Shown here: positions 7,745 through 24,118 of the stretch, in pieces
Layout: the number at the start of each line of letters is the position of its first letter
Position numbering within the stretch: the first letter of the stretch is position 1
Assembly: GCF_000013045.1 (NCBI RefSeq)
Contig: NC_007677.1
Span: 2,356,001 to 2,420,000, forward strand
Direction: 5' to 3'
Length of the DNA stretch: 64,000 nucleotides
Source of the DNA: Salinibacter ruber DSM 13855
GTDB taxonomy: Bacteria; Bacteroidota; Rhodothermia; Rhodothermales; Salinibacteraceae
The notes under the pieces: generated by a model
The model's database searches: none
Told to the model about the DNA's origin: nothing
The model's input: only the letters and a program-made list of their open reading frames with translations
Program-made: the position numbers and the translations under genes

Positions 7745-8170
7745 TCAAAGGATATGTTCAGGGCGAGGGGGTGGGGACGGAAAGGGGCGAACGCTGACTT
7801 CCGCGGAGGGATCGCTCTCTCCGCCCTCCCCCACCGCGGTGACCCGGTAGTAGTAGCGCGTCCCGGTGTCAACCGCGTCGTCCGTCAGTGTGGGCTGCCC
7901 GAGCGGGGTGTCCCCGTTCACCGGGGTCCCGTTGGCCCCCGAAAATGAGCTGGTGCTCCGGTAGACATTGTACCCCGATGCATCTGCCCCGCCGTCCCAC
8001 GTCAGGCTGACGCTCCCGTCCTGGGTGGTCGCCTGGACACTCGTGGGCGGCGACGGCGGCTCCGGGGACGTTCCTCCACCGTCGCACCCCGGCAAGAGAA
8101 GAAGCCCAGTCCCAATGGCCGTCAGAACCCCTATTCGTACGACGGCCGGAAACAGCGAGCGGTTAATCAT
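7745..8170 (-). CDS. Small FN3-domain lipoprotein
   Basis: The 141-residue product begins with a lipoprotein signal peptide whose lipobox is LLPGC followed by DGGG, predicting lipidation and export. A Pro-rich linker leads into one fibronectin type III domain (about residues 40-130). The domain shows the typical strands SVSLTWDGG, GYNVYRSTS and TRYYYRVTAV. An in-frame TTG three codons upstream is less likely than the ATG at 8170. It lies 45 bp downstream of the secreted endonuclease gene on the same strand and may be its surface partner. FN3 domains bind protein or carbohydrate; no enzymatic residues are visible. Function otherwise unknown. Confidence 0.8.
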   Translation of the reverse strand: MINRSLFPAVVRIGVLTAIGTGLLLLPGCDGGGTSPEPPSPPTSVQATTQDGSVSLTWDGGADASGYNVYRSTSSFSGANGTPVNGDTPLGQPTLTDDAVDTGTRYYYRVTAVGEGGESDPSAEVSVRPFPSPPPRPEHIL

Positions 8171-8215
8171 GAAACCCAAGACAGCTTGTGGACCAGACGG
8201 CGTGGAGAGTCTGCC

Positions 8216-11200
8216 TCACCGGACGAGCACGACCTTCTCGACGTGTTGCTTCTCGTCGGTCGACACGCGCAGGAAGTACGTCCCGCTGGCCAGCCGACGC
8301 TGTGACGCGTCCGTTCCCTCCCAATTCACCCGATGGGGACCGGCCTCTTGACGCCCTTCCGCCAGGGTGCGAACCCGCCGTCCCAAAAGATCGAACACGG
8401 CAACCGTCACGTCCTGCGTCTCCGGCAGAGCGTACTTCAGGGTGATCTGGTTGCGGAATGGATTGGGCGCTGGGGCCTGTACCGTGAGGCTCTCCGGAAG
8501 ACGCTCACGGGTCTCCGACGTCACGTAGGACGAGCGCCCCACCAGGAGCTGAATGCGAGACGGATCGGGGCCCGCCGCAAGCGTCAACGGCCCGTCGGTC
8601 CGGAGGTCGTGGGAACGACCGTTCGCCGGATCAACGAGGGCCACGTCCACTTGTGGCGACTGCGGGAGCGATTCCGCACGCAGTGTCACCGGTCCTGTCG
8701 TGTCGGCCCGGAGCTCGAGGGTATACGTCTGGCCCCCCGTTCCCGTGGGCCGTACATCTCGCGCCAACCGGCCCTGCCGCTCGGGGGCCGCGCCTGCGAA
8801 TGGCGCCCGGGCGGACAGGGACAGACTTGCAAACCGTGACGGCGGGGCCGCAAGGTCTTGTGCGTCTTTCCCGTCGGCGGCCGCGGGATGCTCTCCCACT
8901 TCTACACGGGCCGTCGCGCGCCCCTTGCGCTCGGCAACCAGTTCGACCGCACGGGTCGTCCGGGACTCATTGGCGGCATTCGCAGTCGTGCCCTCGGAGG
9001 ACGAGAGCGGTATCGTGAGCTGGTCCAGCCCCTGGTCGTTGAGGACGTAAAAGGCCTCCCCTTCCGCTGCCGACACAAAAGTCGACGCCTCCCGAAAGGA
9101 GCCGCTGTCCCAGTCCCACAAGGCCTGAAGCGTCCCCTCGTTGGCACTCTGCACGGCGCTCCACGGAACGTTTCGGGGCAGTGGGTTGGAGATGATGTTC
9201 CACCCGTCGTGCAGCGGGATTGTGGTCGCCCCGTTCTGCACGTCCACCGTGGGAATTGTCGTTTGGACCGACCAGTCACTCGTGCTCAGGACCCAGAACC
9301 CGCGGCCGGGCCGAAAGTCAAACTGATCGCTGCCGTCGAACTTAATGAAGGGCTCCTGGTCACTGCCGTCGTCCCAGTACGCCTGCCACCCGACGCCCGC
9401 CTCGCCGGAGAGCGTCGACGCGAGGGCCTGGTCAACCTGGCCCGGCAGGGCCACGAGGCGGTAGCTGTCCCCGGTGCTCGGGTCGCCGAACGAGCGCGTC
9501 ACGTCGACGGTCGTCTCCCCAGGAAGCTCCGCCGTCAGATCGCCGGCGTCGAGACCAAGAAGCTGATACCCCTCGTCCGGCTCATCCGCGTCCGGCCCCG
9601 CCCCATTGAACTGCCCGAGGACCCCCTGAAAGGTGGCACGGTCCGGGATCGGCTCCCCCTCAAGTTCCGATCCACTGGGAATTCGAAGCGTGAGGGAGCC
9701 CGTGCCGTCCTGGATCATGTAGTTCCCCGCGCTGCTGCCCGCCCGAAACGTGTCGTCCCCGTCGGCGTCGATGGAAACGTTTTCCACCCGCACGAGCTCT
9801 GCCTCGTGATTCTCGCCGCTGGCGGCAATGTCTCCAAGCGTGAGGGTCGTCGGGGCCGGGAGCGACTCGTCCTGAGCGATGATTTCGAAGCCATCGTCAG
9901 GCACGTCGGTCAACTCCAGCAGCCCGTTAAAATAGGTGAGCGTTCCCGTCACTTCTAGTCGGGTGCCCTTCTCGATGGAGCTGCCGAGGGCCTGCCCAAA
10001 GACCCCCTGGGATTCGAAGATGTAGAGCCCGCCGGTCTGGTCTTGAATGTACGGGCCGTCGTCTCCGACACGGGTCACAACGCCCTCCACGGACACCGTA
10101 CGGCCGCCGCCCTGCTCCCGGGCATTCTGAATAGAGATCACCTCGGGGCCCGGGACCTCTTCGCCGTAGGCTCGGTCGGCGAGGGTGGAGTCGAGCACAA
10201 ACGGGTTCGGAATGTTGCCCTGGTAGCTGCCCTGAGAAAGCGTTCGACGGAGCTCCGTCGCATCCACAGGATCCTCTTCGTGCCACTCCAGAAGCGTTTC
10301 CCGCTGGGTTTCCAAGAACGACAAGTCCGCTCGGTTCGGGTACGCCATGGCGAAGTAGAAGGCCGCACGCGCCACGTCTCCTTTCTTGCTATGGCGCGGC
10401 TCGAAGCGGCGGTTGTCCCGTTCAGCAGGACTGCTGTCAAGCTCACTCCAGAGCTCCAACCCATTTTGCGGAGTGGTCGATCGAGACTCGTCCTCAAAGT
10501 ACCAACTGTCGGTGTCCGAGTCTGGGATCTCCCCAAAGGCGTAATTGCTTCGCGCCGAGTTGACCGCATCGTGTGCGGGGGCCAGGATGTGCATGTCGCT
10601 CAGGGCCGGCTCGTTCTCGGCGCCTTTGCTGCGGGGCCAGATGTGCTCGGTATTTACACCCTGATCGAGTGCCTGATCACTGGCGTCTCCTCCGTCCGGG
10701 TCGACGACCACCTGGAGCCCACTGTAAATGGCCTCGACGGTATCTTGCTCGTTGTAGACGCGGCGGTACAGCGTGTCGCGGGCCGGGCCGTATCCAATCG
10801 TGGGCGGATCGCCGTACCGTTGCCGGAGCGAGTCGAGGAGCACGTTGGCGCTATCGCCCGCAACGATCGGTCCTTGGGCCGCCGGGCCGTCCAGAATCCA
10901 AAGCGTAAAGCGGCTGGGAGACGAGATGCCCCCGTCCTCGGACGACAGCGCAACCTCTAGCCGCTCCACCCCCTCCTGCTCAGAATCGTCCACCGGCTCC
11001 AGGGTAAGGGTCTGTGGCGACGGATCCGTTCCGGAAAACGTAAGCGTCTGCGGGCTCTGAAAGCCCATGACGTCCGTCCCATCCGCGGTGCTGGACGGCC
11101 CTACTTCTGCCGTCACCGAGACCGTCCTGTCCGTTTCTTTGTTGAAGACCTGAACCTGCACCGACACAGGGCCGTCCCCTTCTTCCGCCTGGGCGAACAG

Positions 11201-11950
11201 GCGATTGAAGGAAAACGACAGCGACGGTTGCAGGTCGCTCTCGCGAACCGGAATGAACTGATACCCCTCGTCGGGCTCATCCCCCCCCGGGCCTTCTCCG
11301 TTGAACTGCCCAAGGACGCCTTCAAAGTCAAACACTCCGCCCGGAATCGGGGCGCCGCCGATCGCCGTCTCGCTGCCATCCTGTACTCGAAATTCAAGGG
11401 GCTGTCCGTCCCCGTCCTCTACCGTATAGGTTGTCCCGTTCTCGAAGGCGCCGGACGCACTGAGAAACCGCAATCCCTCAACACGGAGCAGCTCACTTTC
11501 GTAGTCTTCCCCGTTCTGAGCCAACTCCGGAAGGGTCACCGTCTGTGGGCTCGGTGGGGAGCCCTGCCCCTGCACCGTGTAGTCGGTGAGGTCCTCGTTG
11601 TTGATCTGAAAAAGCCCGTTGAAGGCCGAGGTGGTTCCGGTTACCTTCACCGTGGTCCCCGGCTGAATGGTGCCGTCCGCAATGTCGCTCTGAAACGCGC
11701 TGCTGTTTGATCCGCTCGTCTGGCGGAGGACGATGGCGCTGGCCCCGGTCGGGCCGCTGTCGTCTTGAACGCGGGCATACGACCCGTACGCTCGCGTCAC
11801 CGTACCCTCCACCGTCACTTCTGTCCCTAGCGGCTCATCGCGTGCCTCGTTGATCGTGATAGGGTCCTGCGCCTGAACGGCCTCCGGCCATGCGCCAACG
11901 AGGAGCAGCGATAGGGCGGCTAGAAAGACCCAGCGCGGCAGGCATGCCAT
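8216..11950 (-). CDS. Secreted multidomain endonuclease I protein with OB-fold modules and T9SS sorting domain
   Basis: This is a 1244-residue exported protein; the ATG at 11950 is preferred over a GTG six codons upstream. Domains in order are: signal peptide ending EAVQAQ; OB-fold module (about 30-245, with VTVEGTVTRAYGSYARVQD and VLGQFNGEGP); Calx-beta-like domain (245-360); endonuclease I/NucM-type domain (370-600) with the His motif NTEHIWPRS, SDMHILAPA and an Asn-rich SARSNYAFGE; second OB-fold module (605-815, ending VLGQFNGAGP); a beta domain seen in surface proteins (815-990); and a C-terminal sorting domain with FDLLGRRVRTL and GTYFLRVSTDEKQ. NucM/EndA enzymes cut DNA and RNA non-specifically outside the cytoplasm. 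The T9SS tail predicts secretion to the surface or medium. A terminator-like hairpin upstream suggests its own promoter in 11951-12120. Confidence 0.88.
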   Translation of the reverse strand: MACLPRWVFLAALSLLLVGAWPEAVQAQDPITINEARDEPLGTEVTVEGTVTRAYGSYARVQDDSGPTGASAIVLRQTSGSNSSAFQSDIADGTIQPGTTVKVTGTTSAFNGLFQINNEDLTDYTVQGQGSPPSPQTVTLPELAQNGEDYESELLRVEGLRFLSASGAFENGTTYTVEDGDGQPLEFRVQDGSETAIGGAPIPGGVFDFEGVLGQFNGEGPGGDEPDEGYQFIPVRESDLQPSLSFSFNRLFAQAEEGDGPVSVQVQVFNKETDRTVSVTAEVGPSSTADGTDVMGFQSPQTLTFSGTDPSPQTLTLEPVDDSEQEGVERLEVALSSEDGGISSPSRFTLWILDGPAAQGPIVAGDSANVLLDSLRQRYGDPPTIGYGPARDTLYRRVYNEQDTVEAIYSGLQVVVDPDGGDASDQALDQGVNTEHIWPRSKGAENEPALSDMHILAPAHDAVNSARSNYAFGEIPDSDTDSWYFEDESRSTTPQNGLELWSELDSSPAERDNRRFEPRHSKKGDVARAAFYFAMAYPNRADLSFLETQRETLLEWHEEDPVDATELRRTLSQGSYQGNIPNPFVLDSTLADRAYGEEVPGPEVISIQNAREQGGGRTVSVEGVVTRVGDDGPYIQDQTGGLYIFESQGVFGQALGSSIEKGTRLEVTGTLTYFNGLLELTDVPDDGFEIIAQDESLPAPTTLTLGDIAASGENHEAELVRVENVSIDADGDDTFRAGSSAGNYMIQDGTGSLTLRIPSGSELEGEPIPDRATFQGVLGQFNGAGPDADEPDEGYQLLGLDAGDLTAELPGETTVDVTRSFGDPSTGDSYRLVALPGQVDQALASTLSGEAGVGWQAYWDDGSDQEPFIKFDGSDQFDFRPGRGFWVLSTSDWSVQTTIPTVDVQNGATTIPLHDGWNIISNPLPRNVPWSAVQSANEGTLQALWDWDSGSFREASTFVSAAEGEAFYVLNDQGLDQLTIPLSSSEGTTANAANESRTTRAVELVAERKGRATARVEVGEHPAAADGKDAQDLAAPPSRFASLSLSARAPFAGAAPERQGRLARDVRPTGTGGQTYTLELRADTTGPVTLRAESLPQSPQVDVALVDPANGRSHDLRTDGPLTLAAGPDPSRIQLLVGRSSYVTSETRERLPESLTVQAPAPNPFRNQITLKYALPETQDVTVAVFDLLGRRVRTLAEGRQEAGPHRVNWEGTDASQRRLASGTYFLRVSTDEKQHVEKVVLVR

Positions 11951-12125
11951 GACATCAGGGAAAAACACTTGAAAGATAGGGGGGAACGGAGGACTGCATG
12001 AACATACGGGCCGCTTGCAACGTCTCGTGATCTTCTGCCGTGAGTCGCCGGAGCACGACGGGCTTGGGGCCCACCTTCACAGTTCAAGAAAGGCCTCTTC
12101 TGTTACCAAGCACCCGTCATTCTCG

Positions 12126-12158
12126 AAAAAGGGACGGCCCCCACGCGGGGCACCGCCC
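12126..12158 (-). terminator. Probable rho-independent terminator after the OB-fold lipoprotein
   Basis: Read leftwards, an imperfect GC-rich hairpin with a GCGT loop (12131-12158) is followed immediately by five T residues (12126-12130). It lies about 45 bp past the stop of the lipoprotein gene and before the endonuclease gene start at 11950. It therefore probably separates two transcripts. The stem has a bulge on each side, so efficiency is uncertain. Confidence 0.55.
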
Positions 12159-12203
12159 ATTTTCTTCGACGGTCCGACGGGGCGAGTAACAGGGATGTCT
12201 GCC

Positions 12204-14534
12204 CTATTCCAGATCCCCATCAATGAGCGGGAGCGTCTGATACCCCTCATCCGGTTCGCGTGCACCACCAAAGCCTCCGTTAAACTGGCTCAGCACGCCT
12301 TCGAACGTGACGGATCCACCCGGGATCGGCTCTCCGACGTAAAAGGAGTTGTCCGAAATCCGGAGGGTGACCGTGTCCCCACTTGAGTCGGTGGCGTCGT
12401 AGTTGGTGCCACCCTGGAAGTTGGAATCCCCCTTACCGTCAACGGTCAGCCCAGAGATTGTAATGAGCTCCGACTCGTAGTCCTCCCCGCCGCCGTTCAG
12501 CAGATCGCTGACCGAAACAGACTGAGGACTGGGGAGGCCAACTCCCGTCTGACCCACAGTATACTGCACGTTCGAGGAAATCTGCAGAAGGCCGCTGAAG
12601 GCCCCAAGCTCTCCAGAGACCTGAATGCGGTCGCCTGGGTTCGGATCAATGCCTCCATCTCGCGCATCATCGGCCAAGTCGCCGTTGCGTACAACGATGC
12701 CACTGGCCCCGGTCGGGCCGCTCTCATCTTGGATGAAGACATTCTGACCATCCACTCGCGTGACAACCCCGAGCGTAAACACGCTCGTACCGTTCGACTC
12801 CTGACGAACCTGATTGATCGTATCACTCAGGTCCCCGTCAACAAGCGGAAGGAGCTGGTATCCCTCGTCCGGCCCGCGTGCCCCTCCGAAGCCTCCGTTG
12901 AACTGGCTCAGGACCCCTTCAAAGGCGACAGCTCCACTCGGAATCGTCTGGCCGGCGTAGAACGAGTTGTCCGAAATCCGAAGGGTGATCGTGTTTCCGT
13001 TCGAATCGGTCGCGTCGTAGTTCGTACCGCCCTGGAAGGTGGAATCCCCTCTGTCATCGATCGCTAGTCCCGAGACTGTAATGAGCTCCGACTCGTAGTC
13101 CTCCCCGCCGCCGTTGAGCAGGTCACCTGCCGAGACGGACTGTGGACTGGGGAGCCCAGCGTCTGTCTGGATGACGCTGTATTGCACGTTCGAAGAAATC
13201 TGCAGAAGGCCGCTGAAGGCCCCAAGCTCTCCGGAGACCTCAATTTGGTCGCCCGGATTCGGATCAATGCCTCCATCTCTCACGTCATCGGCCAGGTCAC
13301 CGTTGCGTACAACGATGCCACTGGCCCCAGTTGGGCCACTCTCGTCCTGGATGAAGACGTTCTGGCCGTCGACCCGCGTGACCACCCCGGCGGTCGAGAC
13401 CGACGAGCCGTTTGACTCCTGGCGCACTTCATTGATCGTAGCGACCTCAGGGGCTATCACGTCGTCCAGGTCGATTCCCAATAACTGATACCCCTCATCC
13501 GGCTCGTCGCCGCCACCGCCCTCACCGTTGAATTGCCCAAGAACGCCCTGGAACGTGCCCCGATCGGGAATCGACTCTCCAACAAGGCCGGACCCGCCCG
13601 TCACGAGAAGGGTGGAGGAAGCGTCCTGCGTACTGATGTCGTACAGCCCGGCGGGAACCCCGCCCTGAAACGTCTGATCCCCGCCGGCGTCGATGGCAAA
13701 GTTCTCAACTCGAATGAGCTCGCTTTCGTACTCTTCGCCGTTGTTTACCACCTCTCCGAGCGACACCTCTTGTGGGGCCGGCAGCGCGTTCCCTGACGAG
13801 AACACCTCCGTCTGCGGCCCGTCGCTCACGCCGCTGACCTGGAACACCCCGTTAAAGTACCCCACCGCACCGTCGACGCGGACCGAGTCGCCCTTGCTTG
13901 CCTGACTGGCAAAGTCACTGTCGAACACAAAGAAGGCACCCGTGCCATCCTGTACGTACACCCCATCCGACTCCACACGAGTGACGAGGCCGTCAGCAAC
14001 GGTTCGCCCACCGCTCGGGCGGTTTCGGGATTCTTCCGCAGTGAACGGCGCATCGTCCTCCTCGATTGTGAGGGTAAAGCTGCTGGCCCCGTCGTCAATC
14101 TCGGGAGCGAGCGTGTCCGCCGGGCTCAGTGTGAACGCGAGGCTTTCCGTGTCCTCCAAAAATCCAGTGCTGTCGACGGGCTCGTCGACGATGGTGAGCG
14201 GGATGGAAACCGTGCCCCCGCTTGTGGCCGAGCGCGGGAAGGTGACCGTTGTGTCACCCGTCAGCCCCGTCACGTCGTCGCCCAGCGCGGCGGTGCTCTG
14301 CGAGGCATTGACCGAGAGGTTGAGCCGCACCTCCTCAAACCCTGGGTCGTCGGCCGTAATTTCAAGGGCATAGGTCTCGTCTTCCCCCTCAACCAACGTG
14401 GCCGTGGACTCCACGAATCCGACAGAGGTGCTGTCCCCCAGATCGTCGGGAACGCCGCCCCCGCTGTCGCAGCCAGCAAGGACAAGACCGCCGATCACAA
14501 GAACAGGCAAGAGTGCGCTGAGAAAACGTCGCAT
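12204..14534 (-). CDS. Lipoprotein with Calx-beta domain and three OB-fold (DUF5689-like) modules
   Basis: The 776-residue product starts with a lipoprotein signal peptide with lipobox VLAGC. A Calx-beta-like region (about 35-165) follows, and then three modules of about 200 residues. Each module has two OB-type halves: a first half with GVVTRVDGQNVFIQDESGP-type strands and a second half ending VLGQFNG or VLSQFNG with a DEGYQ motif. Modules two and three are almost identical over about 206 residues (DNA period 618 bp). The same module occurs twice in the endonuclease encoded just downstream. OB folds commonly bind nucleic acid or oligosaccharide; no catalytic residues are seen. It is 80 bp downstream of another surface lipoprotein gene and is probably co-transcribed with it and the receptor. 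A nucleic-acid-binding role is inference from the neighbour. Confidence 0.85.
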   Translation of the reverse strand: MRRFLSALLPVLVIGGLVLAGCDSGGGVPDDLGDSTSVGFVESTATLVEGEDETYALEITADDPGFEEVRLNLSVNASQSTAALGDDVTGLTGDTTVTFPRSATSGGTVSIPLTIVDEPVDSTGFLEDTESLAFTLSPADTLAPEIDDGASSFTLTIEEDDAPFTAEESRNRPSGGRTVADGLVTRVESDGVYVQDGTGAFFVFDSDFASQASKGDSVRVDGAVGYFNGVFQVSGVSDGPQTEVFSSGNALPAPQEVSLGEVVNNGEEYESELIRVENFAIDAGGDQTFQGGVPAGLYDISTQDASSTLLVTGGSGLVGESIPDRGTFQGVLGQFNGEGGGGDEPDEGYQLLGIDLDDVIAPEVATINEVRQESNGSSVSTAGVVTRVDGQNVFIQDESGPTGASGIVVRNGDLADDVRDGGIDPNPGDQIEVSGELGAFSGLLQISSNVQYSVIQTDAGLPSPQSVSAGDLLNGGGEDYESELITVSGLAIDDRGDSTFQGGTNYDATDSNGNTITLRISDNSFYAGQTIPSGAVAFEGVLSQFNGGFGGARGPDEGYQLLPLVDGDLSDTINQVRQESNGTSVFTLGVVTRVDGQNVFIQDESGPTGASGIVVRNGDLADDARDGGIDPNPGDRIQVSGELGAFSGLLQISSNVQYTVGQTGVGLPSPQSVSVSDLLNGGGEDYESELITISGLTVDGKGDSNFQGGTNYDATDSSGDTVTLRISDNSFYVGEPIPGGSVTFEGVLSQFNGGFGGAREPDEGYQTLPLIDGDLE
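12205..13440 (-). repeat. 618-bp in-frame tandem duplication within the OB-fold lipoprotein gene
   Basis: Two adjacent units (about 13440-12823 and 12822-12205) encode nearly the same 206 residues. Both carry GVVTRVDGQNVFIQDESGP, GELGAFSGLLQISSNVQY and GGGEDYESELIT. Scattered silent and conservative changes show that the duplication is not brand new. The reading frame is preserved across the junction. Confidence 0.9.
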
Positions 14535-14614
14535 AGGTCGTTGGGGCGTAAAACTAGTAGCACGATGAGGGTACAGAACTTCGCACGGCGTAACCGCCGA
14601 GGCATGGTCATTCG

Positions 14615-15607
14615 TTACCGACCCACAACCCGGACGTCATCCACCTGCTGCTCTTCGGACGATCCCGGTCCCGTTCCGCTAGAGGTGTACTTGAAGGCCA
14701 CGTACACCTCGTCGGCCTGAAACTGGGCGTCGGACAGGTCGATTTCGCCCGACGCGACAAAGCCTTCCCCCTCCGACGCGAGGCTCTGAACACGGTCGGT
14801 GATGTCGGTCCAACTGAAGTTCTCCGGATTCCCCGATCCGTCGTAGTCGGTCGACACCTTCACCTCTAGCGGCTGCTCCTCTCCGCCATCGTCAAAGCGT
14901 TTCCTGTTCCGGAAGGTGAGCGTCTCGCCTTCAAAGTTGTTGAAGTTAATCGCCGGGCTAATGAGCCACGAGTTGGAGGCCTCGCTTCCGCCGAAGGCGT
15001 TTGCCACCGCGTAACTGTTGTTTTCGAAGTTGCCTGTTCCCCACCCATTGCCGTTTGTGACATTGAAGACCGACATCGGATCCAGGCTTCCGTCTTCAAA
15101 ATCCTTGAAGAAGATCTCGATGGCGCCGATCGAAATCGTCAACCGATCTGTCCCTTCCACAGAGGCATTGGTGACATTCTGAAAAACGAAGACGCCATCC
15201 TCTTTGGGCTCGTTGTCTTCTTCGTCCGCGATGTCGAGCGTCAAGGTCTGGGTGTTGCCCGTAGTCGCCGTGTCGGGAAAAACCACGCGACCGGCCACGT
15301 ACCCACTTCCCACATTGCGGCTGGATTCGAGCCCGAAGTCCGAGGGGCTCGTGCTACTCGTCCCATCGGCGTAAAGCACCTCTGCGGAGACGGTGTCGTT
15401 GGGGGGATTGGTGACCGTGACCTCGATAGTCACCGTCCCAGACTCCTCAGTGATGGAGATGTTGTCTGTGGCGAACGACACCGTGGCGTTGCTCTCTCCC
15501 GTGGCCTCAGTGGGCGGCGTCCCACTGTCAAGTCCATCGCAGCCGGTGATGAGGAGGGCGCCAGCGAGAAGTAGGGCCGGAAGGCGGAGGAGTTGAAGCG
15601 TGTTCAT
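14615..15607 (-). CDS. Lipoprotein with Calx-beta-like and choice-of-anchor J domains
   Basis: This 330-residue lipoprotein has signal sequence and lipobox LLITGC. Residues about 40-165 form a Calx-beta-like domain (VTIEVTVTNPPNDTVSAE). The C-terminal half (about 168-330) is a choice-of-anchor J type jelly-roll, recognised by FFKDFEDGSLDP, NSWLISPAINF and DIDD-like acidic turns, ending VDDVRVVGR. Such domains bind carbohydrate or protein and are common on surface proteins of Bacteroidota. It lies 58 bp downstream of the Oar-like receptor and 80 bp upstream of the OB-fold lipoprotein on the same strand, so it probably belongs to the receptor operon. It may play the part of a substrate-capturing lipoprotein, as SusD does elsewhere, but it is not SusD-related. 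That role is inference. Confidence 0.82.
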   Translation of the reverse strand: MNTLQLLRLPALLLAGALLITGCDGLDSGTPPTEATGESNATVSFATDNISITEESGTVTIEVTVTNPPNDTVSAEVLYADGTSSTSPSDFGLESSRNVGSGYVAGRVVFPDTATTGNTQTLTLDIADEEDNEPKEDGVFVFQNVTNASVEGTDRLTISIGAIEIFFKDFEDGSLDPMSVFNVTNGNGWGTGNFENNSYAVANAFGGSEASNSWLISPAINFNNFEGETLTFRNRKRFDDGGEEQPLEVKVSTDYDGSGNPENFSWTDITDRVQSLASEGEGFVASGEIDLSDAQFQADEVYVAFKYTSSGTGPGSSEEQQVDDVRVVGR

Positions 15608-15665
15608 AATGGGGGCAGTCGGAGAGATTCAGGAGCGCGGAGGGAGTAAGACGAGACGCGGAGCG

Positions 15666-18600
15666 CTAAAACGTGTACTTGACACTCAGCCGGGCGCGCC
15701 AGCGGGACGGAATGTCCGAGGTGAAGAACTGCTCACCGTTCAGGCGCTCACGGACGGTTTCTTCCTCGAACGAGACGCGCGGCTTGCCCACGTCGTCTTC
15801 CGTGATCACCCGCCCGTTCTCGATCGTGCCCACCTGGTCGGGGCGGACGTAGCCCTCAAAGGCCCAGGCCGTGACGTTGTTGAAGCTGGTGTTCTGGATC
15901 CGCCCCCAGTCTTCGTTGAGCAGGTTCAGGAAGTTGTTGACCTCGGCAATGAATTCAATCCGCTGCCCATTGAAGGTTTGGATGCTCTGCGAGATCTGCA
16001 CGTCGAGGATGTTCTGCCAGGGGGCGCGCGCCGTATTCCGCTCAATCACCGAGCCGCGAGCATCGCTCAGCGCATCGTCTCCCTCGATGAAGGCATTCAT
16101 CAAGTCCCAGTTGTCGCTCTCCAGGACGATGTCCGACTCGTTCTCGGGCACGTACACGAGGTCATTGAACGACTGCGTGTCACCGTTGGCGTTGCCGTCG
16201 TAGATCCAGCTAAACGGCTCCCCAGAGCGCCCCTCGTAAATGAGCCCGATGGTCGTCCCGAAGCGGTCGCCGTACGTGAGTGTGTAGTTCAGCGTCCCGA
16301 GGATGCGGTGCCGGATCTCGTAGTCCGCCGTGCCCACGCGCGGGTCGTTGATGTCCTTGTTTTCATTGAACTGCCAGTTGGAGATGGCCCGGCTGGAGGA
16401 TCCGTTGTTGACGTTCGTGGCCCGTGTGTAGGTGTACGCGACCGATCCACCGATCCCCGTTCGCACGTTGCGCTGAAGCTCGCCCGTCAGGCTGTACTGG
16501 TAGCCGTCGTTTGTATTCTCGAGGAGGATCGCGTTGGTAAAGCGCTCGCTCACGCGGTTGACGTCCCCGCCCGGCGTGCCGTAGAACGGCCGTCCATACT
16601 TCGACCCTTGGATCGGGTAGCGGCCGTCGCTGGTGCCTCCCGGTTCCGGCGCCTCGAGGTTGATGTTGCGGAAGGTGACGTCGTTGATTGTGTTCGAATA
16701 GAGGCCCTCCACCGTGCCCACGACACCGAGCGGCAACTCCTGGTCCACCGCCAGGTTTAGGCGAAAGGTCTGCGGGTACTTGAAGTCGTCGGACGCCAGG
16801 TTAATCTCTGTCGTCTGCACCGGCGCGAGGAGCTCGCTGCAGCGTTCACTGTCCGGGGTTTCCTGACAGAAGGGCGCGTTTCGGGGAAGCGGCTGGCCCG
16901 TGGGGTTGTCGCCGATGTTGGTCGGCACAAATCGACGTCCATTTTCCGGCGCATTCTCGCCGTAGAAGTCGCTTTCTTGGTCGAAGGTTGCGTCGATCCG
17001 GTTGACGTCGGCCCCGGTGTTGCTGTACTGGTTGGAGATGAAAACGTAAGGCGGGTCCCCACTGAAGATGCCAATCCCTCCCCGAATCTGAGTCGAGAGG
17101 TCACTGCCCAGGAACGCCCGGTCATAGTTGAACCCGAGCCGGGGCGACCAGAGCGGGTTTCCACTCGCCACATTGCTCGTGCTCCGGCCGAAGGCCTCGA
17201 ACGCCGTGGGGTTGAAGGTCGGGTCGTCCGGCAGCACCGGCACGTCCACACGCAGGCCCAGTGTCAGCTGGAGATTTTCGAGGGCCTGCCACTCGTCCTG
17301 CACGTAGCCGCCAAACTGGAAGGCCGAAAAGTCCGCCTCCGGCCGGTCGGTGCCGGCCGCCTCGGTGGCGTAGCTGAACCGGTACTCCGACGGCTGGCCG
17401 CGTCGCAGCGCCTCGGTGGCCGAGATGGTGTCGCCGTCCGCCACGAATTCCTCAAACGTGTAGGACCCGAAGAAGTCCTGAATGAATAGGTTGCTGAACT
17501 GGTAGAACTTGTTGCTCGTCCCCACTGTCAGCGTATGGTCGCCAACGGTGTAGGAGAGGTTGTTGGTGAACTCGAACAGGTCTTGATCGAGGCGATTGGC
17601 CTGGCTGAACCGACCGATGCCGGCCCCGATCTCATCCCCTCCCCCAAGATCAAGCGCAATCTCGGGGAACGCGGCGTCTTGTACGTCCCGCTCATCCCGG
17701 ATGCGGGTGTAGACGAACCGTGCCTCGTTGAAGATGTCGTTGTCGAAGCTGCTGTTGAGCTGGGCCGTGAGGGAATTTTGGCGGCTCTGGAAGACGTACT
17801 GCCGGTTGGCAAAGCTGAAGCTGCCTTCACTCCGGTCGATGCCCTGATCGTCCGTCGCGTTAACGTAGTTGTTGCGGAGCGTCAGGCGGTGATTGTCGTT
17901 GACGTTCCAGTCCAACTTCACCAGCAGCTTCTCGTCGTCCTGTCGCTGCGTAAGCGGCGAGATGCCGCCGGGATTGTAGCCGTATGTGTCCTGAAAGATC
18001 GACCGGAGCTCAGTAAATGTATCACGAGATTCGCGGAAGACATTGGTCCCTTCCAGATCTTCTCCCACCCGCGTGTCGAGCGGCGAGCTCTCTCGCTTCA
18101 ACTCGCCACTGATGAAGAAGAACAGTTCGTCCTCGATGATGGGCCCGCCGAGGGTGCCCACGTAGAACGCCTGATTGAACTCCCCCGTCCCCACCCCTTC
18201 GAGGTCGCCGGTGAAGTCCTCAGTGCCACCTTGGAATCGGAACGACCCTTCAAACTCGTTCGAGCCACTCTTCGTGATAGCGTTGATTTGCCCCCCCGTG
18301 AAGCCACTGGAGCGCACGTCGTATGGAGCGATGTTGATGTTGAACTCCTCGATGGCGTCGAGGCTTATGGGCTCGGCCCCCGCCTGGCTGCCGGGCACCG
18401 CGTCGCCCAGTCCGAAGACATCGTCGAGGGTTGCGCCGTCAATCTGAATGTTGTTGTAGCGGCTATTTGCGCCTCCGATGCTGCCGTCGCCCTGGGCCTG
18501 CGGCACGAGCCGCGTGAAGTTGGTGAGGCTGCGGCCGATGGCAGGGAGCTCCTCAATCTGCTCGGTCGATACGTTCGTGGCGGCGCCCGTCCGGTCCTTG

Positions 18601-19001
18601 TCGATCACCGCTCCGGACTGTCGCCCGACAACCTCCACCTCTTCCATCTGTGCCGTCTTCGGCTCGAGGGCAAAGTTGAGCTCTCGGGACTCGTCGAGCT
18701 GCAGCCGAATGCCTTCCCGCCGGATGGTCTGGTATCCCACGAACGACGCGGAAATGGTGTACGGCCCTCCGACCCGCATGCCCTGGATGTTGAACCTACC
18801 GTTCGTGTTCGTGGCGGTGCCGTACCGCGTGCCGGTCGGCTGGTGAACGGCAACGACGTTGACGCCCGGCAGCACATCTTCATTTTCATCCACGACGGTG
18901 CCCGTGATTGAGGCCGTCGTCCCCTGCCCCGCACTGTCCGCAACGGGCAGCAGGCAAAAGACGAGAACAGGCAAGAGCCAGCGCGTGACGATAGACTTCA
19001 T
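15666..19001 (-). CDS. Oar-like TonB-dependent outer-membrane receptor
   Basis: The product has 1111 residues from the ATG at 19001; an ATG at 19016 would add five. A signal peptide ends near ADSAGQG. It is followed by a carboxypeptidase-regulatory-like beta domain (GTVVDENEDVLPGVNVVAV, about 25-110) and a plug domain (about 120-250) with QINAITKSGSNEFEGSF. A long beta-barrel follows, ending in the aromatic KYTF signature of outer-membrane proteins. This layout matches Oar-type receptors, which import or export large substrates with TonB energy. No SusD homologue follows; instead two modular lipoproteins do. About 200 bp upstream and again about 90 bp upstream lie sequence boxes shared with the receptor gene at 20514-24029. 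Substrate unknown; nucleic-acid fragments are a guess from the neighbouring nuclease. Confidence 0.9.
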   Translation of the reverse strand: MKSIVTRWLLPVLVFCLLPVADSAGQGTTASITGTVVDENEDVLPGVNVVAVHQPTGTRYGTATNTNGRFNIQGMRVGGPYTISASFVGYQTIRREGIRLQLDESRELNFALEPKTAQMEEVEVVGRQSGAVIDKDRTGAATNVSTEQIEELPAIGRSLTNFTRLVPQAQGDGSIGGANSRYNNIQIDGATLDDVFGLGDAVPGSQAGAEPISLDAIEEFNINIAPYDVRSSGFTGGQINAITKSGSNEFEGSFRFQGGTEDFTGDLEGVGTGEFNQAFYVGTLGGPIIEDELFFFISGELKRESSPLDTRVGEDLEGTNVFRESRDTFTELRSIFQDTYGYNPGGISPLTQRQDDEKLLVKLDWNVNDNHRLTLRNNYVNATDDQGIDRSEGSFSFANRQYVFQSRQNSLTAQLNSSFDNDIFNEARFVYTRIRDERDVQDAAFPEIALDLGGGDEIGAGIGRFSQANRLDQDLFEFTNNLSYTVGDHTLTVGTSNKFYQFSNLFIQDFFGSYTFEEFVADGDTISATEALRRGQPSEYRFSYATEAAGTDRPEADFSAFQFGGYVQDEWQALENLQLTLGLRVDVPVLPDDPTFNPTAFEAFGRSTSNVASGNPLWSPRLGFNYDRAFLGSDLSTQIRGGIGIFSGDPPYVFISNQYSNTGADVNRIDATFDQESDFYGENAPENGRRFVPTNIGDNPTGQPLPRNAPFCQETPDSERCSELLAPVQTTEINLASDDFKYPQTFRLNLAVDQELPLGVVGTVEGLYSNTINDVTFRNINLEAPEPGGTSDGRYPIQGSKYGRPFYGTPGGDVNRVSERFTNAILLENTNDGYQYSLTGELQRNVRTGIGGSVAYTYTRATNVNNGSSSRAISNWQFNENKDINDPRVGTADYEIRHRILGTLNYTLTYGDRFGTTIGLIYEGRSGEPFSWIYDGNANGDTQSFNDLVYVPENESDIVLESDNWDLMNAFIEGDDALSDARGSVIERNTARAPWQNILDVQISQSIQTFNGQRIEFIAEVNNFLNLLNEDWGRIQNTSFNNVTAWAFEGYVRPDQVGTIENGRVITEDDVGKPRVSFEEETVRERLNGEQFFTSDIPSRWRARLSVKYTF

Positions 19002-19086
19002 GATGGAGCGTTCCATTTGTGAACCAGGCTTGATGGCGGTGCGACGCTTCCCGTAAGAACATTTGGCGGGAAGACGATCTTTTCAG

Positions 19087-19369: not shown

Positions 19370-20389
19370 CTAGCGCCGGCCGTTGGATCGAGCCTTCGTC
19401 TTGAGCGAGAGGGTCCAGACGTTCCGCTGCTCGTTGGCAATGCGGAGCGTGTGGGGATCGTCCCAGGTCACCGCCTCGGCCTGTTGGGATTGGTCGGCGG
19501 GCAGGGCAATGCGCCGGGGTTTGGTCGAGAGCCAGTGCGTCTCGTCGTCAGGGCGCAGCCCAGGACTACTCCCTCGCTTCCGCTCGGGGCGCGGAAAGAG
19601 CCAGACCGACGCGTAGCCCAGCACGGCGAGCCGGTCCCCACTCGGGCTGAGGGCGGCGGCCGTGGGCGGCGGAATCGTGTCGTGGCGGTCCACAAGCGTC
19701 AAGGTGTTCACCCGGTGCGTGTGCTCGGTGTCCAGCCGGTACAGCTTGGTTCCGGGCTGGGATACGTTAATCTGTTGCCCCTTTCGGTGCTTGGTCAACA
19801 CGTACAGTGTGCCGTTGTCCACGAACAGGCTTTCCGCGTCAAAGTCCCACTCTCGGGCCGGAACGGTCTCCTGATCCGGGTACTGGATGGGTAGGTGCTT
19901 GACCGGTCGAGTCCGGCGGTCGTACTGGAAGGGCTCTCGGATGACATAGATGCCCAGGTCGCGCCGGGCGTTGCCGTTGTTGCCAATGTCCCCCAGGTAC
20001 AGCGTACTGTCCTCCACCGCGATGTCCTCGTAGTCGATGTGGGCGGCCGCCCCGAGCTGGACGCCCGGCCACGGTGGATTGGCGCTGCTGTCGGCCTCGG
20101 CGCCCGCCGCGTAGTCGCCGGCGTGCCAGGGGGCCACGTGTACCGCCCCGGTGCTGTCGATGGCGAAGAGGCGGGGGCGATCCCCGCTGTCGTTGTGCAC
20201 CCACCACACGTTCTCCTGCCACCGGCTCCGGACGATGCCGCTCGTCTCATCGATCAGGGTATGGGCCACACGGCCGGTACGATTCAGGACGGTGCTGTCG
20301 GGAGACTGGGCGTCTCCCGGACGCGGAAGGCCCACAGTCAGCAGAATCAGTGCAGAAGCAAGACAAGAAAGTCGGTGGGGTCTGGTCAT
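19370..20389 (-). CDS. Secreted propeller-like protein of unknown function
   Basis: The ATG at 20389 gives 339 residues with a signal peptide ending GLPRPGDAQS; the frame runs 105 codons further upstream without protein-like character. The mature part has repeated short beta motifs: WWVHNDSGDRPRLFAID, IDYEDIAVEDSTLYLGDIGN, ESLFVDNGTLYVLTKHR and LSPSGDRLAVLGYASVWLF. This is suggestive of a beta-propeller. The conserved DSGD and YEDIA-D motifs resemble secreted metal-binding propellers of the phytase or esterase-like kind, but I cannot assign an activity. It lies 124 bp downstream of the second Oar-like receptor on the same strand with a strong terminator in between, so it may be transcribed separately. 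Confidence 0.75.
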   Translation of the reverse strand: MTRPHRLSCLASALILLTVGLPRPGDAQSPDSTVLNRTGRVAHTLIDETSGIVRSRWQENVWWVHNDSGDRPRLFAIDSTGAVHVAPWHAGDYAAGAEADSSANPPWPGVQLGAAAHIDYEDIAVEDSTLYLGDIGNNGNARRDLGIYVIREPFQYDRRTRPVKHLPIQYPDQETVPAREWDFDAESLFVDNGTLYVLTKHRKGQQINVSQPGTKLYRLDTEHTHRVNTLTLVDRHDTIPPPTAAALSPSGDRLAVLGYASVWLFPRPERKRGSSPGLRPDDETHWLSTKPRRIALPADQSQQAEAVTWDDPHTLRIANEQRNVWTLSLKTKARSNGRR

Positions 20390-20437
20390 TGCGACGTGTT
20401 TGCTGGAAGGTGTCGCGATGCCATTCGAGTAGGCACT

Positions 20438-20478
20438 CCAAAACACGAAACGGGTGGCCGTCTTTCGACGACCACCCG
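20438..20478 (-). terminator. Rho-independent terminator of the second receptor gene
   Basis: The stem CGGGTGG/CCACCCG (20451-20457 with 20472-20478) is extended by CGTC/GACG around a four-base loop. Read leftwards it is followed by a T-rich tail (TTTCGTGTTTT). It begins about 35 bp after the stop codon of the receptor gene at 20514. This is the clearest terminator in the window. Confidence 0.7.
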
Positions 20479-20513
20479 TCTCGACACTATCGGCTTTCAA
20501 TCTTATCCCCAGG

Positions 20514-23500
20514 TTAGAACGTGTACTTGACACCGAGACGCACCTGGTAGAGCGTGCTGTACGTCTGAGTTCCCGATTGTACGTCGAACGATTCCTCCAA
20601 GTTCGTTTCGGGGTTCTCCGTTCCGAGGGCCGACTGGTACACTGGCGTCGGGTTACCGTCCCCGTCCTCGTCTGTGAAGCGAACAAAGTTGACCGGACTG
20701 ACAAGTCCAGCCTGCTGGTACCGATAGCCCCACTCGGTGCCGAAGATGTCTCCGAGCATGGAGGAGAAGTTGAAGACGTTGGCTGTGAGAGTAAGCTGCT
20801 GTTTACGGCCTACAAGTTCGCCAGAGAAGTTAAGGGCAAACTGCAGGTCCACGACACCTTCGAACGGGGTTCGATCCCCGTTGCGGGTGGCGTACTCGCC
20901 GCGATTCTCACTCAAGTAGTCAACGTTTTCAATGAAGCGGTCAAGATCCTGTGCCTGCTGCTGCGGCGTTCGGATGACATCGCCGTTGCCGTCTTTGATC
21001 GGAGCAAACTGGAGGTTGCTGGCGTCCTCTGGAATGTAGAAGAGCGGCGGGCCACCTTCGTCTCCGATCATGGTTTCTGCTGCGCCTCCACCAATCGTGT
21101 AAGAGAAAGGCCGACCCGACTGCCCGTTGTAGAAGAGCGACAGGTTTGTGGAGACGTTCTCCGTGAGTTCCTGACGGTACCCCAGCGACAACTGGATCCT
21201 GTGTCCGAGAGAGAAAGGAGAACGACCAAGAGTCAGGTTGTTCGTGGTGCTCGCATGAGGATTGTCACCCCAGTTCGAACCCACCGTGTCGCCAAACTGG
21301 TTGAGGCCTCTCGAATCTCCGTAGGTATAGGACACTTGCCCGCGGACAGTACCACCTTCCCACACAGGAGTGGGTGCCTTGCGCAACCGGCCTGTGACCG
21401 TGTAGCTGTACCCTTTGTCGGTGTTATCCAGCAGATAGACATCACCATAACGGGGATCAACACCAATATCTGTGTTGGGGTCCCGCGGCTGTGTGTAAAT
21501 CGGACGGTCGTCGTTTGTCTGGCCAGCGTCAAGGTTCGCGTTCGGCTGTTTCAAGTTCACGTTCTTCACGATCACATCATTGAGTTTGCTGGAATACTGG
21601 CCTTCCAGTGTGCCCGTGAACCCGAACGGTAACTCATGATCGATCCCCAGAGTGGTGCGCAGCACACGGGGGTACGTGAAGTCGTTCCGGAAAAGGGTTA
21701 GGTTACCAGTCGGCGTGAGTTCATCTACCGAAGACGGTGGTGTCGCACCAAATGCCCCTCCTCCAAAGATTCCCGCGTCGTCGAACTGCGTCAATCCGTT
21801 CTGTGGACGGCGAAGCGGAACCGGACCCGCGAAGCTACCTCCCGCGGCGACAGCTGCACTCTGACCGTTGTTCGTGAATGCATTTCCCGGCCACAGCTGA
21901 GGAAGACGGCTGGTGAAGACCCCTGTACCGCCACGAACCTGCGTGTTTCGCTCCTCGGTGAACGAGTAATTAAAGCCGAATCGGGGCGACCAGAACACCT
22001 GCCAGTCTGGCATCTCGCCCGCCGTTGCACCATTCAAGTCGTAACCAGCATCGCTGACGGCTGGAAGGAGCTCGGCGTTGGCACTGGGATGAGCACCTGG
22101 GTCATCCAGAATCTTCGGGAGGTCGGCTCGAAGGCCGAAGGTGAGATTCAAACCTTCAATCGGCTCCCACTTATCTTGCACGAAAAACCCAAGCTTTACT
22201 GACTGGAATTCAGCTCGTAGTGCCGTGTTGTCGTTCGCGATGTAGTTGAACGGCGTATCTGGGTCATTGTCGACGAGCGAATACTGATGGAGATAGAAGT
22301 CTGTCTGCGTCGACGGATCCGGATACTGTGCCTGGCAGATGGGACCGGGTTCCTGAATGCCGAACTGTCCCTGCTTCTGCTCCGCATAGTGGCACACCGT
22401 CTCCGCGAAGTCGGATACGTTAGCAAAATCATACGACCCAGGTCCGAAGATCGCGAACCGATTGTCAATGTCGTACAGTTCGTTGTGTGTTCCCACCGTC
22501 AGCGTATGGTCACCGATGAAGATATCGGTTTCATTTGTGAAGGTGAAAACATTTTGCTCTAAGAAGTTCGGATAGGAGAACGGTTCGGAGCCGAGACTGA
22601 TATCTCCTCCGCCATCGGTGATACTGATGCTCGGGAACGGCTCTCCGTCTACACCACGATCATCTTCGACGTTCTGGAAGGTCGCAGTGGTTTTCGTAGC
22701 GACGTTACCGCCAAAGGTCCCGTTCCACCGCAGCATGGCGTTATGCTGTGTGCTCGGGAATACCTCCGAATTGTTCTGAAAGTTGATTCCACTTCGAGTG
22801 CTCTGAAAACGATCTTTGTTGAAGTTATCGTTGTACCAGTACCGGGCCGTTAACTTGTGATTACTATTGAGGTTGAAGTCAAGTCGGCCCAGGAATTTGT
22901 CAGCATCCAGGATATCGGACTTGCTTCCCGGCGTACCTGGGTCGTACCCGGTATTCCGCTCCATGAAGTCCCTGATTTCAAAGACGCTGTCAAGTGTGTT
23001 GTTATCGGGGTTCCCGCCCCGAAGCGGCGTATTTCCTTCGTATCCCTGCTGGAGCGGCTTGCCTTCGTTCTCGCGCCGGATATCAGTGTTGACGAAGAAG
23101 AACAGGCGATCCTTAATGATCGGTCCCCCCAGCGAGAAGACGTAGCGGTCGGACGATGTGGAAGAAGGAATGCCATCCACAAGTGTCTCTCCTTCGACAT
23201 TCAGTTCTCCCTGTGTCAGGTTGGCACCCCGGCGATAGTACTCAAACGAACCATCGAACTGATTCGTCCCGCTTTTTGTGGTGAAGTTGATGGCCCCTCC
23301 CACGAATCCAGACTTTGTCACCTCATAGGGCGAGACTTCAACCGACATCGCCTCCACTGCACTGAGGCTGATGGGCGACGCCCCGCTCTGTCCGCCCGGA
23401 GTACCTTGCGCGGAGAGTCCATAAACGTCGTTGGTAACAGCGCCGTCGACGTAAATTGAGTTGAATCGGTTCCACTGTCCAGCGATTGAGATGGCCGGAC

Positions 23501-24029
23501 CATCGTCGTTGGAGTTCACGACGTACGACTGTGGTGTCAGCCGTGCCACGTCCGCGATGCTACGGCTCATCGTGGGCTGTTCCTCTAGCTCTGCCGAACT
23601 AACGTTCGTGACGAGTCCATCGCGTTCCGACGACAGTATGCCGGTCGTGTTCGCGACAACTTCTACCTCATCCATCTCGGCAGTGCTCTCCTGAAGCGCG
23701 AAGTCAAGACTCAGCGTCTGGCCTAAATCCAGCGTCACCCCTTCTTCCCGTTTCGACTGATACCCGACGAACGATACGGTAATACGGTAGGGCCCACCTG
23801 GACGCATGTTGGAGAGAGCGTATCGGCCGTTTGCATTGGCTGAGGCCCCATATTGCGTTCCTGACGGTACGTGTACCGCCAGCACATTAGCACCTGGGAG
23901 GGACTGTCCGTCTGCGTCAGTCACCTGTCCTCGGATAGTCGCGGTCGTAGCCCCCTGGCCAAACGTCGCAGATGGCCAGAAGAGTAGTCCAAGAACGAGT
24001 ACGAGTGGTATTGTAACCCAACGTTTCAT
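20514..24029 (-). CDS. Oar-like TonB-dependent outer-membrane receptor, lower G+C
   Basis: The ATG at 24029 gives 1171 residues starting with a signal peptide (to about ATFGQG). A carboxypeptidase-regulatory-like domain (IRGQVTDADGQSLPGANVLA, 25-105), a plug (about 115-250, with GGAINFTTKSGTNQFDGSF) and a beta-barrel ending VRLGVKYTF follow. It is a diverged paralogue of the receptor at 15666-19001 with the same N-terminal domain order. Codon third positions and local composition are visibly less GC-rich than in the rest of the window. That may mean a different age of acquisition or relaxed codon selection. The leader shares two boxes with the other receptor. No lipoprotein gene follows directly; a secreted propeller-like gene does. 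Substrate unknown. Confidence 0.9.
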   Translation of the reverse strand: MKRWVTIPLVLVLGLLFWPSATFGQGATTATIRGQVTDADGQSLPGANVLAVHVPSGTQYGASANANGRYALSNMRPGGPYRITVSFVGYQSKREEGVTLDLGQTLSLDFALQESTAEMDEVEVVANTTGILSSERDGLVTNVSSAELEEQPTMSRSIADVARLTPQSYVVNSNDDGPAISIAGQWNRFNSIYVDGAVTNDVYGLSAQGTPGGQSGASPISLSAVEAMSVEVSPYEVTKSGFVGGAINFTTKSGTNQFDGSFEYYRRGANLTQGELNVEGETLVDGIPSSTSSDRYVFSLGGPIIKDRLFFFVNTDIRRENEGKPLQQGYEGNTPLRGGNPDNNTLDSVFEIRDFMERNTGYDPGTPGSKSDILDADKFLGRLDFNLNSNHKLTARYWYNDNFNKDRFQSTRSGINFQNNSEVFPSTQHNAMLRWNGTFGGNVATKTTATFQNVEDDRGVDGEPFPSISITDGGGDISLGSEPFSYPNFLEQNVFTFTNETDIFIGDHTLTVGTHNELYDIDNRFAIFGPGSYDFANVSDFAETVCHYAEQKQGQFGIQEPGPICQAQYPDPSTQTDFYLHQYSLVDNDPDTPFNYIANDNTALRAEFQSVKLGFFVQDKWEPIEGLNLTFGLRADLPKILDDPGAHPSANAELLPAVSDAGYDLNGATAGEMPDWQVFWSPRFGFNYSFTEERNTQVRGGTGVFTSRLPQLWPGNAFTNNGQSAAVAAGGSFAGPVPLRRPQNGLTQFDDAGIFGGGAFGATPPSSVDELTPTGNLTLFRNDFTYPRVLRTTLGIDHELPFGFTGTLEGQYSSKLNDVIVKNVNLKQPNANLDAGQTNDDRPIYTQPRDPNTDIGVDPRYGDVYLLDNTDKGYSYTVTGRLRKAPTPVWEGGTVRGQVSYTYGDSRGLNQFGDTVGSNWGDNPHASTTNNLTLGRSPFSLGHRIQLSLGYRQELTENVSTNLSLFYNGQSGRPFSYTIGGGAAETMIGDEGGPPLFYIPEDASNLQFAPIKDGNGDVIRTPQQQAQDLDRFIENVDYLSENRGEYATRNGDRTPFEGVVDLQFALNFSGELVGRKQQLTLTANVFNFSSMLGDIFGTEWGYRYQQAGLVSPVNFVRFTDEDGDGNPTPVYQSALGTENPETNLEESFDVQSGTQTYSTLYQVRLGVKYTF

Positions 24030-24118
24030 GATGGACGAAGGGGTTGTTAGAGCAAATGCGAATAGAAAGAGTGCCAACACTAAAGTCCACGGCGGCCATT
24101 TTTCGGACCGCTCAATGT

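Follow-up and report, generated by a model that had tools for sequence, protein, structure and literature searches.

The salt-loving bacterium Salinibacter ruber DSM 13855 carries a five-gene locus, built around an Oar-type TonB-dependent receptor (OAR1) and a secreted endonuclease I protein, that we propose captures extracellular DNA at the cell surface, cuts it and imports the products, mainly for phosphorus. We put the probability of this reading at roughly 0.5. The locus runs from 19016 to 7745 on the minus strand of the 64,000-nucleotide stretch analysed here (the window; NC_007677.1, positions 2,356,001 to 2,420,000). In the proposed mechanism, two lipoproteins with OB-fold (oligonucleotide/oligosaccharide-binding) and jelly-roll modules, together with the nuclease's own OB modules, would grip DNA at the outer membrane. 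The nuclease would be exported via the type IX secretion system (T9SS), kept at the surface and cut the DNA there. OAR1 would then use TonB energy to carry the products through the outer membrane, the probable benefit being phosphorus and nucleotides.

Bacteroidota release nucleases, and some of them undergo transformation despite lacking pili. To our knowledge, an importer that brings DNA or DNA fragments across the outer membrane has not been firmly established in this phylum. The combination described here is new and is built from known parts. Its receptor lineage stands beside three kinds of phosphodiesterase and beside lipoproteins resembling those of a transformation system, which provides concrete genes to test. 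In related bacteria, one kind of receptor is coupled to very unlike enzymes that cut DNA or nucleotides, a pattern suggesting that DNA serves as food or as a supply of new genes. The answer matters for two wider questions, the use of free DNA for phosphorus in salterns and the route by which Salinibacter gained archaeal genes.

Receptor, lipoproteins and nuclease on one strand

Profile searches with Pfam and NCBIfam recovered the five genes that the first-pass annotation had described, all on the minus strand. OAR1 (15666..19016, 1116 residues) has the CarboxypepD_reg and OMP_b-brl_4 domains of an Oar-type receptor, with both profiles above their cut-offs (PF13620, 1.6e-21; PF25183, 1.4e-50). 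It is followed by a choice-of-anchor-J (DUF5017) lipoprotein (14615..15607, 330 residues; NF038128, 60.8 bits against a cut-off of 30) with an ITGC lipobox and a weak N-terminal Calx-beta match. Next come a DUF5689 lipoprotein (12204..14534, 776 residues) with a LAGC lipobox, a Calx-beta domain and three DUF5689 OB-fold modules (PF18942 in three stretches), the endonuclease I protein (8216..11968, 1250 residues counted from the first GTG) and an FN3 lipoprotein (7745..8179, 144 residues; PF00041). The intergenic gaps, from the receptor end to the FN3 end, are 58, 80, 235 and 36 bp. GC content and GC at third codon positions (GC3) are below those of the neighbouring genes, which we take to be nad genes from their translations. 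A promoter scan gave fewer sites than in shuffled sequences, and terminators were about as frequent as expected.

Like a SusCD polysaccharide utilisation locus, this one places a TonB-dependent receptor, surface lipoproteins and a secreted hydrolase in one row. It had been suggested that SusD and glycosidases are replaced here, and indeed Pfam found no SusD domain and no glycosidase among the five genes. The receptor is also not SusC, since TIGR04056 reached only 63.5 bits against a cut-off of 368.

The endonuclease I protein retains its active-site residues and a T9SS tail

The nuclease protein is the product of the sole PF04231 gene in the S. ruber genome (2.4e-23, 83.6 bits against a cut-off of 25), and it also matches PF18942 (3.2e-11) and Calx-beta. 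Its domains are arranged as OB (residues ~35-250), Calx-beta (~251-365), nuclease (~366-606) and OB (~607-815), so that OB modules flank the nuclease domain on both sides, a refinement of the initial description. We modelled the nuclease domain (10151..10873) with a mean predicted local distance difference test score (pLDDT) of 70, positions 104-156 being poorly modelled. A fold search with this model returned seven significant matches, all endonuclease I structures, including Vvn (1oup) and V. cholerae EndA. Residues E441, H442, N470, R473 and N475 were invariant in an alignment of ten homologues, and the VNSARSN motif aligned with VNGDRSN of Vvn. Going by the residue roles in Vvn, we take E441 and H442 to be the catalytic Glu-His pair and N470 to be a metal-binding Asn. 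The model and alignments together indicate a domain that is predicted to fold like Vvn and to keep its catalytic residues. Loss of the catalytic residues would have spoken against a role in DNA cutting; the two alignments and the fold search reject it.

The protein begins with a signal-peptide-like N-terminus and ends in a T9SS type A sorting domain (residues 1168-1247; TIGR04183, 38.4 bits against a cut-off of 23). The T9SS core is present in the genome (SprA_N, 8e-86), and the protein thus has the features of a T9SS cargo. Many further proteins of the family share the C-terminal ~435 residues (8216-9530), among them one encoded on the small second contig (G000:C2:4993-6294).

These features bear on the direction of transport. 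Myxococcus Oar, which shares the CarboxypepD_reg domain and TonB-dependent barrel of OAR1, is required for secretion of the protease PopC, a dependence that was reconstituted in E. coli (PMC6434023); the first-pass annotation had overlooked this precedent. Import by OAR1 can therefore not be taken for granted, and OAR1 might instead be an exporter that aids secretion of its neighbours. However, PopC has no signal peptide (PMC6434023), whereas the signal-peptide-like N-terminus of the nuclease, its sorting tail and the accompanying SprA would already provide a way out. We consider export by OAR1 very improbable.

Secreted endonuclease I proteins are known from other Bacteroidota. F. johnsoniae EndA1 and EndA2 likewise carry accessory domains, including FN3, but they are listed as orphan genes, with neither a receptor nor a DUF5689 lipoprotein (PMC8115612). 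In that species, phosphate depletion induces the secreted endonuclease I proteins (PMC8115612), consistent with a phosphorus-related use.

Gene order is conserved in Salinibacteraceae

Within a set of 146 genomes of the class, only Salinibacteraceae had full-length homologues of the nuclease protein. The order receptor, lipoprotein, DUF5689 lipoprotein, nuclease and FN3 lipoprotein was kept in four loci from other genomes of this family (L073, L074, L075 and L076), with the FN3 gene in the same spot in each and orthologues of the choice-of-anchor-J lipoprotein also found. L073 and L074 are near-identical, and there are therefore about three independent copies besides that of S. ruber. OAR1 orthologues occupy the conserved position in these loci and in L077, a shortened locus whose contig ends within the nuclease gene; L078 has the nuclease homologue only. 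The lipoproteins vary in their domains. In L073, L074 and L076, the second lipoprotein is a fusion of DUF5689 and choice-of-anchor-J, and in L075 the first bears DUF5689 in place of choice-of-anchor-J. Kept gene order rejects, for Salinibacteraceae, the chance scatter of non-syntenic homologues that would have undercut a functional link. The full nuclease protein was unmatched in four of eight same-genus genomes (G191, G195, G300, G334), and the locus is thus accessory.

Conservation of the whole set also bears on whether the nuclease acts alone. Endonuclease I and ExeM-type nucleases elsewhere take part in biofilm DNA turnover, and NCBIfam ties the OB modules to ExeM/NucH nucleases. The secreted nuclease could thus clear DNA of the matrix or of viscous lysate from around the cells, with the lipoproteins merely anchoring and OAR1 importing something else. 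Yet none of the complete Salinibacteraceae copies that we read has the nuclease apart from receptor and lipoproteins, and pairing of the receptor with a phosphodiesterase recurs in distant families. We judge clearance to be an unlikely explanation.

The OAR1 lineage is paired with three kinds of phosphodiesterase

A profile of OAR1 found strong relatives in many Bacteroidota. We read 50 loci of this lineage and found a phosphodiesterase within 6 kb of the receptor in 34 of them: 6 endonuclease I genes (all in Salinibacteraceae), 14 fusions of DUF5689 to an EEP nuclease and 14 PF01663 genes. Of these 34, eleven originally came to light by way of DUF5689 or the nuclease and do not count as independent; when loci were picked by receptor score alone, 23 of 39 had a phosphodiesterase at this distance. 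PF01663 genes number only about two per genome, and the receptor-PF01663 adjacency is therefore far above chance, which we estimate at roughly 1%. This pairing of one receptor lineage with three kinds of enzyme is a new link.

In a tree of 62 receptors, those of Salinibacteraceae grouped together (99) inside a class-level group (100). The larger group also holds receptors linked to PF01663 from family f14 (probably Balneolaceae) and partnerless receptors from families f2 and f10. The tree required 10 partner changes, compared with 31.5 when labels were shuffled, a contrast inflated by close relatives.

Close parallels are offered by five loci (L065, L070, L244, L246, L247) in which an Oar receptor is followed by a DUF4397 lipoprotein and a DUF5689-EEP nuclease. 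They share the Oar lineage, mostly a small lipoprotein, and DUF5689 fused to a secreted nuclease. They differ in that the nuclease has the EEP fold and the choice-of-anchor-J lipoprotein is missing. The earlier expectation that receptor, OB-fold protein and nuclease co-occur across Bacteroidota held widely, but the nuclease need not be of the NucM type.

PF01663 nucleotide pyrophosphatase/phosphodiesterase genes stand beside Oars of several subfamilies (loci L238, L239, L240, L249, L252, L254, L256, L259; genomes G061, G069, G167, G022, G104, G112, G176). DUF5689 and endonuclease I also meet elsewhere. A single protein in L033 (3799-7680) contains endonuclease I, Calx-beta, DUF5689, an EEP nuclease and a T9SS tail, and so has two unrelated nuclease folds within one chain. 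In L132 (4904-9970), from the distant lineage of G041, a plug-type TonB receptor is immediately followed by a DUF5689-endonuclease I-T9SS protein.

The lipoproteins resemble those of a transformation system

The DUF5689 lipoprotein was modelled with a mean pLDDT of 67. The model contains a Calx-beta domain at residues 34-161 (Z 13.8) and OB folds at 162-247 and 363-457 (Z 11.0 and 10.7). In a structure search, the OB folds were closest to HIN domains, anticodon-binding domains of aminoacyl-tRNA synthetases and telomere proteins (Teb1). Because OB folds are general, these matches support DNA binding by the predicted modules without showing it. Searching the PDB by sequence with DUF5689 lipoproteins yielded no informative match.

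Natural transformation of R. anatipestifer, which proceeds with no pili present, depends on two proteins encoded side by side, both of them essential: an outer-membrane protein with PF13620 and a protein with DUF5689 and DUF5017 (PMC8459023). This pair (RA0C_RS04915-RA0C_RS04920) and its homologues in Flavobacteriaceae resemble the S. ruber locus in placing a CarboxypepD_reg receptor beside DUF5689 and choice-of-anchor-J, which S. ruber carries on two neighbouring lipoproteins. The resemblance, which appears from domain content and is a new link, was missed by the first-pass annotation; its interpretation stands in part, on synteny, catalytic residues and the lack of SusD. Our comparison rests on the M949_1556 family and on the adjacency in Flavobacteriaceae stated in PMC8459023; flavobacterial homologues score as this family, above the cut-off in L052 and L105.

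Among 45 matches to flavobacterial-type receptors (one receptor, in L110, is split in two), 44 adjoined a protein that a local profile identified as DUF5689 or choice-of-anchor-J, a figure that arises by construction as loci were mostly chosen through DUF5689 matches. This does not apply to the EEP nuclease gene, which lay within 2.5 kb of 28 of the 45 and was divergent in 26 of these 28. In some flavobacterial loci, a lamin-tail domain replaces choice-of-anchor-J in the DUF5689 lipoprotein (L055, 9871-11250).

The locus could also be a DNA-uptake gate for natural transformation. The lipoproteins would capture double-stranded DNA, the nuclease would create ends, and OAR1 would let the DNA into the periplasm on its way to ComEC and DprA, a route like that proposed for Riemerella. 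Besides the Riemerella genetics, this account draws on the fused lipoprotein of L073, L074 and L076, which has the Riemerella domain pair, on the frequent EEP neighbour, and on three flavobacterial loci (L106, L112, L115) where, as in S. ruber, a further choice-of-anchor-J lipoprotein separates the receptor from the DUF5689 protein. ComEC, DprA and DUF1343 are present in the S. ruber genome, but ComEC and DprA are near-universal and count for little. The receptors, moreover, belong to different families. Orthology of OAR1 to the flavobacterial receptor was rejected, as hhalign of the family profiles aligned 167 columns only, and the flavobacterial profile matched only N-terminal domains, none full-length, in the S. 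ruber genome. The S. ruber system also differs in its added FN3 lipoprotein and in its nuclease, in which endonuclease I is joined to OB modules and ends in a T9SS tail; the nuclease gene shares the strand of the rest. Relatives of OAR1 elsewhere are paired with PF01663 phosphodiesterases, which fits nucleotide scavenging, and the literature searched held no report of Salinibacter competence. We regard a transformation gate as fairly unlikely, yet as a serious rival to nutritional uptake.

Proposed nutritional uptake of DNA

For DNA uptake as nutrition, the setting is favourable: communities in salterns draw phosphorus from extracellular DNA, and Salinibacter made up 6.6% of the starting community (PMC8443641). 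Several observations weigh against it. In the same study, the users of the DNA appear to be haloarchaea and not Salinibacter. Sixteen of the 50 OAR1-lineage loci had no phosphodiesterase within 6 kb, including loci in genomes of the same order (G003, G151, G227). PF01663 genes also flank Oars outside the OAR1 lineage, a partial control, and the PF01663 pairing is therefore not specific to this lineage; nor need the substrate of PF01663 be nucleotides. The OB modules are strongly acidic, with 31-38 acidic and 7-9 basic residues per 200-216. Such a surplus is expected in a salt-in halophile and is not typical of DNA binders. Finally, the known role of the DUF5689/choice-of-anchor-J pair lies in transformation and not in nutrition.

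The nutritional and genetic uses might also be joined. On a broader and speculative view, which we think rather unlikely, one Oar lineage would be a general importer of nucleic acids and oligonucleotides in Bacteroidota that repeatedly recruited unrelated phosphodiesterases and, in Salinibacter, also admits transforming DNA. If so, transformation via this lineage would be a route for the haloarchaeal genes in the Salinibacter genome.

A second receptor upstream

Directly upstream of OAR1, and absent from the initial description, lies a second Oar-type receptor, OAR2 (20514..24080, minus strand). Its GC content (0.555) and GC3 (0.64) are far below those of its neighbours. Tandem receptors were also found in L073, L074, L075 and L077, and in the distant loci L240, L259, L262, L266 and L269. 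OAR2 possibly belongs to the DNA system. A predicted protein at 19370-20704, a homologue of which gave a weak, below-cut-off phytase-like signal, is encoded upstream of OAR1 here; its counterpart in L073 and L074 is instead found downstream of the FN3 gene.

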